A stretch of DNA of 6,836 nt from an uncultured Collinsella sp. (GTDB taxonomy: Bacteria; Actinomycetota; Coriobacteriia; Coriobacteriales; Coriobacteriaceae): assembly GCA_937934355.1 (NCBI GenBank), contig CALGZY010000211.1:1-6836 (forward strand). The letters run 5' to 3'. Below the pieces are notes generated by a model. The model did no database searches, had not been told where the DNA came from, and worked only from the letters and a program-made list of their open reading frames with translations. Shown here in pieces: positions 3,001 through 3,510 of this stretch. Each line of letters opens with the position of its first letter. Position 1 is the first letter of the stretch. A program made the position numbers and the translations under genes.

Positions 3001-3510
3001 TCGTTCACCCGCAACGGTCACACCATTTCCGCCGAGAAGGCTCGCCTGTACCTGTTCGACGACCTGGGCGTGTCGCAGCGCTGGACCAACAAGTTCAGCG
3101 AGGTCGGCATCGAGACGGTCGGCGACCTGGTTGGTAAGTCCGAGGAGGATCTGCTGCGCATCGATGGCATCGGTGCCAAGGCGATCGAGGAGCTCCGTGA
3201 CGGCCTTGAGGCCCACGACCTGCTCTACATCCTCGAGAACAACGACGACGTTGCCGACGAGGAAGACCTCTCGCAGCTGCTGCAGATGGTCTTTAGCCCC
3301 GACGGTCCGGACGACATCCTGCTGGGCACCTCTGCCGCGCCGACGCATCACGCCGACGCCGACGAGGAGCTCCTGGGCGCTCCGATCGACGACAAGAAGG
3401 CTCCCGCCAACGGTGCCATCAACGAGGACATGGCTTCCCTCGACGAGCTGCTCAACCAGCTCGTGGACACCGACGACGCCGAAGAGGCCAAGGACAACGA
3501 CGAGGAGTAA
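1..3510 (+). CDS. rpoC: DNA-directed RNA polymerase subunit beta' (5' partial)
   Basis: This is the largest subunit of RNA polymerase and supplies the catalytic magnesium site. The reading frame is open from base 1, so the start and roughly the first 250 residues (by comparison with E. coli) lie upstream. Visible landmarks in order: the DGGRFA and [18 protein letters not shown] blocks; the active-site NADFDGDQ at 628-651 with its three aspartates; the bridge helix region around YGARKGL (ending near 1668); a four-cysteine zinc site (1711-1713, then C-x6-C-x2-C at 1924-1956); trigger-loop [11 protein letters not shown] (from about 2032); and the conserved end motif IPAGTG at 2794-2811. There is no long insertion in the trigger loop. 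About 232 residues follow IPAGTG, far more than in E. coli (about 45, from memory), comprising a linker, a helix-hairpin-helix domain and an acidic tail. Bridge-helix and trigger-loop residues deviate from the usual consensus. rpoB is expected just upstream. Confidence 0.98.
3046..3222 (+). other. alpha-CTD-like helix-hairpin-helix domain in the beta' C-terminal extension
   Basis: This part of rpoC encodes a compact helical domain starting LYLFDD and ending at a leucine at 3220-3222. From the arginine at 3079 it aligns without gaps to E. coli RpoA 265-312 (recalled from memory), with 16 identities in 48. Shared positions include R265 (3079), N268 (3088), GDLV at 279-282 (3121-3132), G296 (3172), K298 (3178) and E302 (3190); these include most of the residues alpha uses to contact UP-element DNA. 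C269, N294 and S299 are replaced by Lys, Gly and Ala. The [12 protein letters not shown] stretch is also a generic helix-hairpin-helix pattern, so a NusA-AR-like or other HhH domain is an alternative. DNA binding is inferred. Confidence 0.8.
3241..3507 (+). other. acidic C-terminal tail of beta'
   Basis: The last 89 residues of rpoC contain 28 Asp/Glu, three Lys and no Arg. The acidic, probably disordered stretch is broken by short hydrophobic patches (SQLLQMVF near 3271, DDILLG near 3313, EELLGAPI near 3367, LDELLNQLV near 3439) that could form small amphipathic helices or docking motifs. No known domain is recognised. The net charge is opposite to that of nucleic acid, so a protein-binding or DNA-mimic role is possible but is inference. 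Confidence 0.7.

Follow-up and report, generated by a model that had tools for sequence, protein, structure and literature searches.

The window analysed here is a stretch of 6,836 nucleotides from an uncultured Collinsella sp. of the class Coriobacteriia (GenBank assembly GCA_937934355.1, contig CALGZY010000211.1, positions 1 to 6,836 of the forward strand). It opens inside rpoC, the gene encoding the beta' subunit of RNA polymerase. This reading frame runs on the plus strand from the window start to position 3510 (1..3510; 1169 codons plus stop), its 5' part lying beyond the window, and is recognised by the beta' models TIGR02386 (1176.4 bits) and NF011498 (PRK14906; 1977.9 bits, equivalog cut-off 1437), residues 1-1168 aligning with positions 327-1454 of the 1459 of the latter. 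Behind the conserved beta' body the frame encodes a domain of the type found at the C-terminus of the alpha subunit RpoA (alpha C-terminal domain, alpha-CTD). The preliminary description had placed this domain at 3046..3222 (plus strand, residues 1016-1074), and the PF03118 profile, comparisons with PDB sequences and a class-wide alignment agree with this placement. According to the fold comparison the folded unit is somewhat longer, at about 3034-3240.

The end of the beta' body is marked by the motif IPAGTG (2794..2811, plus strand, residues 932-937), which is present as IPA(A/G)TG in 37 of 38 RpoC sequences compared and is followed by 232 further residues in the window RpoC. A linker of 78 residues (2812..3045, plus strand) joins this motif to the domain. 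It contains a conserved segment of 17 residues, and a similar stretch occurs in families bearing the domain as well as in families whose RpoC ends in a cysteine-containing tail. The structure prediction of the linker is of low confidence (predicted local distance difference test, pLDDT), with one helix at tail residues 41-49 and short strands. Behind the domain follows an acidic C-terminal extension of 95 residues (3223..3507, plus strand) with a net charge of -26, in which a segment of 14 residues and a segment LDELLNQL are conserved. Among the class tails read, this extension occurs only in the window's order; in the class families outside this order whose tails were read, the protein ends at the domain or about 12 residues or fewer past it. 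Downstream of rpoC the window continues into rpsL, rpsG and fusA, as named from the translated sequences.

Five residues of alpha-CTD, R265, N268, G296, K298 and E302, belong to its determinant for DNA contact. All of them are identical in the window domain. The gapless alignment of residues 1027-1074 (3079-3222) with residues 265-312 of E. coli K-12 RpoA (NC_000913) yields 16 identities in 48 positions, exactly the match quoted in the preliminary description. R265 corresponds to Arg1027 (3079..3081, plus strand), and G296, K298 and E302 correspond to Gly1058, Lys1060 and Glu1064 (3172..3192, plus strand). The best comparable 48-residue segment within the first 933 residues of RpoC reaches 10 identities, and 16 were reached by one of 5000 shuffled tails. 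The support from profiles far exceeds that from counting identities: PF03118 scored 35.3, 38.1, 40.9 and 41.1 bits on four cuts of the window protein, above its curated cut-off of 23.8. The generic helix-hairpin-helix (HhH) family HHH_5 gave 19.2-24.4 bits and thereby stayed under its cut-off of 27. A phmmer search against PDB returned 54 sequences at E <= 10, 53 of which are RNA polymerase chains and 52 of which are named alpha (best E 5e-6). Furthermore, the predicted fold superimposes on E. coli alpha-CTD with 1.3 Å over 66 residues and corresponds to the alpha-CTD fold including the extended segment ahead of helix 1.

A generic or unrelated HhH identity is therefore not favoured, since alpha-CTD profiles and structures outscore generic HhH in the window. 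The proposed comparison with the acidic-repeat domains of NusA was less decisive: no NusA-named chain appeared among the sequence matches or among the fold matches listed, which does not exclude a kinship. The domain is encoded near the 3' end of the RpoC frame and is not accompanied by the dimer-forming N-terminal domain of alpha, so the protein is not an RpoA subunit. The preliminary description was right in recognising an alpha-CTD-like domain on beta', but it went too far in confining alpha-CTD, as a rule, to RpoA, as weak NCBIfam matches extend to BREX PglW and to a small hypothetical protein.

The class-wide alignment comprises 21 RpoC domains from across Coriobacteriia. The counterparts of R265, G296 and E302 are Arg, Gly and Glu in 21/21 of these rows and that of K298 is Lys in 17/21. 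A larger set of 60 distinct domains, weighted towards the window's order and including two groups from outside the class (f47 and f36, see below), shows Arg in 57 and Tyr in 3 at the position of R265, conservation of G296 and E302 in all 60, of K298 in 52 and of N268 in 45, and Ala at the position of S299 in 52. In 48 tails ranging from Collinsella to Olsenella the mean column identity is 0.957 for the domain and 0.75-0.76 for its flanks. These values point to a strong constraint on the entire domain and to a less conserved linker. Together with the low predicted confidence of the linker, this fits the tether downstream of IPAGTG proposed earlier.

We built a profile (A1) from the 21 domains and ran it on 149 Coriobacteriia genomes. 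A strong match (E < 2e-21) outside the RpoA frame was found in 108 of them, lying in frames of 1411-1600 amino acids in 100 cases and in shorter frames in 8; representative frames among these were read individually as RpoC. All 68 genomes of the window's order (comprising families f1, f3 and f5) were positive, and 40 of the 81 other genomes. No strong A1 match was listed in single genomes of f14, f17, f21 and f22, which establishes absence for none of f14, f21 and f22; no RpoC tail was recovered from G084 (f14) or G146 (f22). Three further genomes showed no listed match, namely G042 (59% complete), G140 (RpoC runs into the end of the locus) and G120 (second match unlisted). Among named public genomes 325 matched stretches were found; within the best 80 of these 325, which were retained, 19 stretches, all from Collinsella, show a tail identity of 98-100%. 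Collinsella aerofaciens itself is placed in the class Coriobacteriia. Misassembly, a frameshift or a contaminated fusion would be the trivial explanation of the arrangement. We found nothing in its favour, and the recurrence of the match in RpoC-sized frames or fragments of 108 genomes and in the 325 named stretches refutes it, so that we regard an artefact as hardly conceivable.

The beta' domain coexists with an RpoA that carries its own CTD. PF03118 matched in 146/149 class genomes, and the best match nearly always lay in a frame of 259-489 amino acids. The genome nearest to the window (G001) encodes, besides the RpoC match (40.2 bits), an RpoA-sized frame of 314 amino acids with a CTD of its own (97.4 bits), which retains R265, N268, C269, N294, G296, K298, S299 and E302. 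The beta' CTD is thus an additional one, and its interpretation as a substitute for a lost RpoA CTD is ruled out. That the domain arose by recent duplication from the CTD of the species' RpoA is ruled out by a domain tree of 77 sequences and 67 columns, in which individual forks are weak. Of the 27 Coriobacteriia RpoC rows in this tree, 25 cluster together with support (98/92) and without any RpoA row among them, and the two others (L050, L055) fall outside this cluster. The RpoC label changes 4 times on the tree compared to a mean of 25.5 for shuffled labels, and none of 500 shuffles was as low. The grouping of the class RpoC domains apart from RpoA CTDs indicates that their capture within the class is old.

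Outside the class, a phylum search covered 296 genomes, 26 of them class members, and was followed up in 35 non-class genomes with at least 2 matches, a scheme that weak RpoC matches in single-match genomes could escape. RpoC-sized frames were matched in 3 of 3 genomes of f47 (59-62 bits) and in at least 5 of 11 of f36 (26-36 bits). In the f47 RpoC proteins (L075, L076, L077) the alpha-CTD-like domain has Tyr in place of R265 in 3/3 genomes, and the end of the protein differs. Protein searches for more relatives gave 2 and 11 matches, each with beta' Pfam domains and PF03118; among the 11 (P0123-P0133), the eight f47-related proteins read have Tyr at this position (8/8). In the f36 tails L079, L080, L081 and L083 the alpha-CTD-like segment is shortened and its second hairpin reduced, which may be a sign of decay, and in tail L085, which has no profile match, no domain is visible. 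The seven RpoC rows of f47 and f36 fall on the RpoA-CTD side of the domain tree. To judge from this tree and the tree of RpoC bodies, the beta' domains of the class, f47 and f36 may go back to one origin or to several. Long matched frames in G208, G259 and G307 lack all three RpoC motifs for which they were screened. A second RpoC of G041, with a short ordinary tail on a contig of 6.8 kb, looks like contamination.

What might such a domain do on beta'? Alpha-CTD binds AT-rich DNA upstream of the -35 region as well as activators, and mycobacteria conserve the residues that interact with DNA; in M. smegmatis, R259 and N288, corresponding to E. coli R265 and N294, are located at the DNA (PMC5511352). 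In two-hybrid practice a partner fused to alpha or omega recruits the polymerase to a promoter via a DNA-bound bait (PMC12369361).

The C-terminus of beta' adjoins omega. From this location, from the behaviour of alpha-CTD and from the two-hybrid fusions we infer a third, tethered contact to upstream DNA or activators. In the explanation towards which we lean, with some reserve, rpoC captured an alpha-CTD at an early stage of coriobacterial evolution and retained it alongside the pair on the alpha dimer as a mobile third one. Starting from the base of beta' beside omega, linker and conserved helix would allow the domain to reach DNA upstream of the promoter. There, the face formed by Arg1027, Lys1060, Gly1058 and Glu1064 would meet the minor groove or a bound activator, and at strong promoters this contact might supplement one made by an alpha-CTD or take its place. 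The acidic tail of 95 residues present in the window's order could compete with DNA, which would probably make the contact conditional.

Several observations weigh against this explanation. The counterpart of N268 is Asn in just 9/21 class-wide rows. The window has Lys, Gly, Ala and Gly in place of C269, N294, S299 and E261, and these replacements are found across the class (N294 to Gly 21/21, S299 to Ala 20/21, E261 to Gly 20/21, C269 to Lys 16/21), apparently as a signature peculiar to the beta' domain. The 55-residue core carries a net charge of -8 in the window compared to -1 in E. coli, and the mean core charge is -4.4 for 30 RpoC domains, while 33 cores taken from other frames, almost all of them RpoA, average -1.9. 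The negative charge and the substitutions at 268, 269, 294 and 299 suggest a weaker or altered DNA binding, or a protein as partner. The Tyr in f47 indicates that the fold can be maintained in the absence of the key Arg. Finally, the A1 search listed no strong match in 26/26 f4 and 8/8 f16 genomes, where PF03118 yields at most one match per genome (E <= 0.01).

Alternatively the domain might be a docking module, serving as landing site for a class-specific activator, an elongation factor or sigma and having no DNA binding of its own. Alpha-CTD is a known target of regulators (PMC5511352), and an acidic core with changed DNA-contact positions in a strongly constrained domain would suit such a role. 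On the other hand, the invariant counterpart of R265 (21/21) would presumably be unneeded for an HhH core. The sigma-contact residues named in the same source are only partly kept: D259 remains Asp in 14/21 rows, but E261 is Gly in 20/21. We regard docking as possible but doubtful. As judged from the sequences, the invariant Arg favours nucleic acid as partner, and the changed residues together with the acidic core suggest that the beta' domain is no simple copy of alpha-CTD function.

In some of the families lacking the match, RpoC ends differently. The f4, f16 and f17 RpoC tails read (L046, L047, L048, L054) carry two cysteine-histidine modules of the type G..C....A.....YC..H. When scanned, 3/3 such tails matched zf-TRM13_CCCH (26-34 bits, cut-off 20.9) and 1/3 exceeded the cut-off of DUF5763, pointing to a possible zinc-binding replacement in the place of the alpha-CTD. 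These families are placed among domain-bearing ones in a poorly resolved region of the RpoC-body tree, and a swap or loss of the domain appears the likeliest course. Zinc-finger-like modules at the same place in sister families would suit a general binding of nucleic acid, and it might be that the domain contacts downstream DNA, the emerging RNA or the ribosome during elongation, instead of promoter DNA. HhH domains generally bind nucleic acid backbones, and HHH_5 also matches 20/21 class rows at E <= 0.01. Against this stand the higher scores of alpha-CTD over generic HhH in the window and the location of the beta' C-terminus beside omega, off the downstream channel, which make this contact elsewhere improbable.

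A purely structural role, in which the domain stabilises the beta' tail or omega and makes no contact of its own, would be in line with the weak matching of omega: PF01192 exceeded its cut-off of 26 in 3 of 5 genomes searched, gave 24.5 bits in G001 (C1:2019746-2019949), below the cut-off, and no match in G045. The less conserved linker with its low predicted confidence and the invariant Arg on the presumed DNA face speak against such a role, and we consider it very improbable.

Promoters of ribosomal RNA (rRNA) genes offer a weak, only suggestive functional test of the domain. Nine of 12 fetched upstream loci of f5 16S genes were used (L193, L194, L196, L199, L201, L202, L213, L214, L217), picked for an A-tract beside a TTGAC box. 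In these, GAAAAAAGT(T/C)C abuts the TTGAC(A/G) box, and additional AT-rich spots about 10 and 20 bp further upstream form a block resembling an UP element. AT fractions reach 0.67 at -56..-52 and 0.78 at -66..-62 and lie at 0.24-0.49 in the 5-base bins beyond. Since the loci were selected by their A-tract, the peak at -46..-42 is circular and just the two others are free of circularity. Among six domain-free genomes asked, only G004 had a 16S match, with short upstream A-tracts likewise, so that domain-bearing and domain-free promoters do not lend themselves to comparison.

A second pattern, TTGTGNAGGNNTTGYGRA, is a lead and no evidence for the domain. G001 has two exact copies, one preceding a 16S gene by about 330 bp and one preceding the rpsL frame by 182 bp, and G045 has four, each at most about 300 bp ahead of one of its four 16S genes; G031 and G004 have none. 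A looser form precedes 10 of 17 f1/f3 16S loci fetched and lies 55 bp ahead of a TATAGT box in 7 loci (f3). As the pattern was written from such sites, only its scarcity elsewhere is informative, and with up to 2 mismatches its counts resemble those of a reversed control.

In the window itself, TTGTGTAGGCTTTGCGGA at 4155-4172, upstream of rpsL, resembles the repeat preceding the 16S genes of G001 and G045. The apparent start codon of rpsL is TTG at 4334 (MPTINQLVR...). The spacer between rpoC and rpsL measures about 820 bases (3511-4333) and contains imperfect inverted repeats at 3569-3639, 3732-3862 and 3988-4128. Rfam gave no match at gathering score anywhere in the window.

A bolder and rather unlikely proposal would make the enzyme a naturally three-CTD polymerase, whose beta' CTD reads a third, more distal upstream block at rRNA and ribosomal-protein promoters (AT-rich to -66 in f5; in f3 TTGTGNAGGNNTTGYGRA, with an estimated position of -67 to -50) and is gated by the acidic tail. 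In other families the zinc module would replace the domain, as in an exchangeable socket for DNA contacts.

In the textbook picture of bacterial RNA polymerase, upstream DNA and activators are reached via a pair of CTDs, one on each alpha subunit. If the tethered upstream contact of the beta' domain holds true, the enzyme of the Collinsella group may have three DNA grips in place of two, and other rules for promoter architecture, activation geometry and growth control may apply across a class of abundant gut bacteria. Polymerase reconstitutions made without the beta' tail would then miss the third CTD. A natural comparison is offered by domain-bearing and zinc-like-tail families within one class, and by a family outside it with Tyr for the key Arg.

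The architecture as such is already on record in databases. The window RpoC is a member of NF011498, whose model covers the domain at model positions 1302-1376 and whose entry names the protein and gives the tail no function; the corresponding PRK14906 cluster is presumably the "beta'/alpha domain fusion protein" of CDD. Precomputed Pfam annotation places PF03118 on 120/120 tail relatives listed. A literature search by titles and abstracts, with most subscription papers outside its scope, returned none on an alpha-CTD at the beta' end in Coriobacteriia. In the main text of a survey of beta/beta' domain insertions, whose figures mask terminal extensions of these subunits, Coriobacter and HhH do not occur (PMC11515920). 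HHH_5 and the N-terminal domains of RAD51/Dmc1 differ from the window domain, which stays under the HHH_5 cut-off and scores higher as alpha-CTD. The two-hybrid constructs on alpha or omega suggest that a module need not be tethered to alpha to act from upstream of a promoter and can sit on another core subunit, but they are engineered and use omega instead of beta' (PMC12369361). The closest likeness is to the alpha-CTD of RpoA (PF03118) in profile, predicted fold and the counterparts of R265, N268, G296, K298 and E302. In contrast to it, the window domain is carried by beta', in one copy per enzyme and without the alpha N-terminal domain, is altered at C269, N294, S299 and E261, is more acidic and is followed by the 95-residue acidic tail. 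It is thus a known domain on an unusual subunit.
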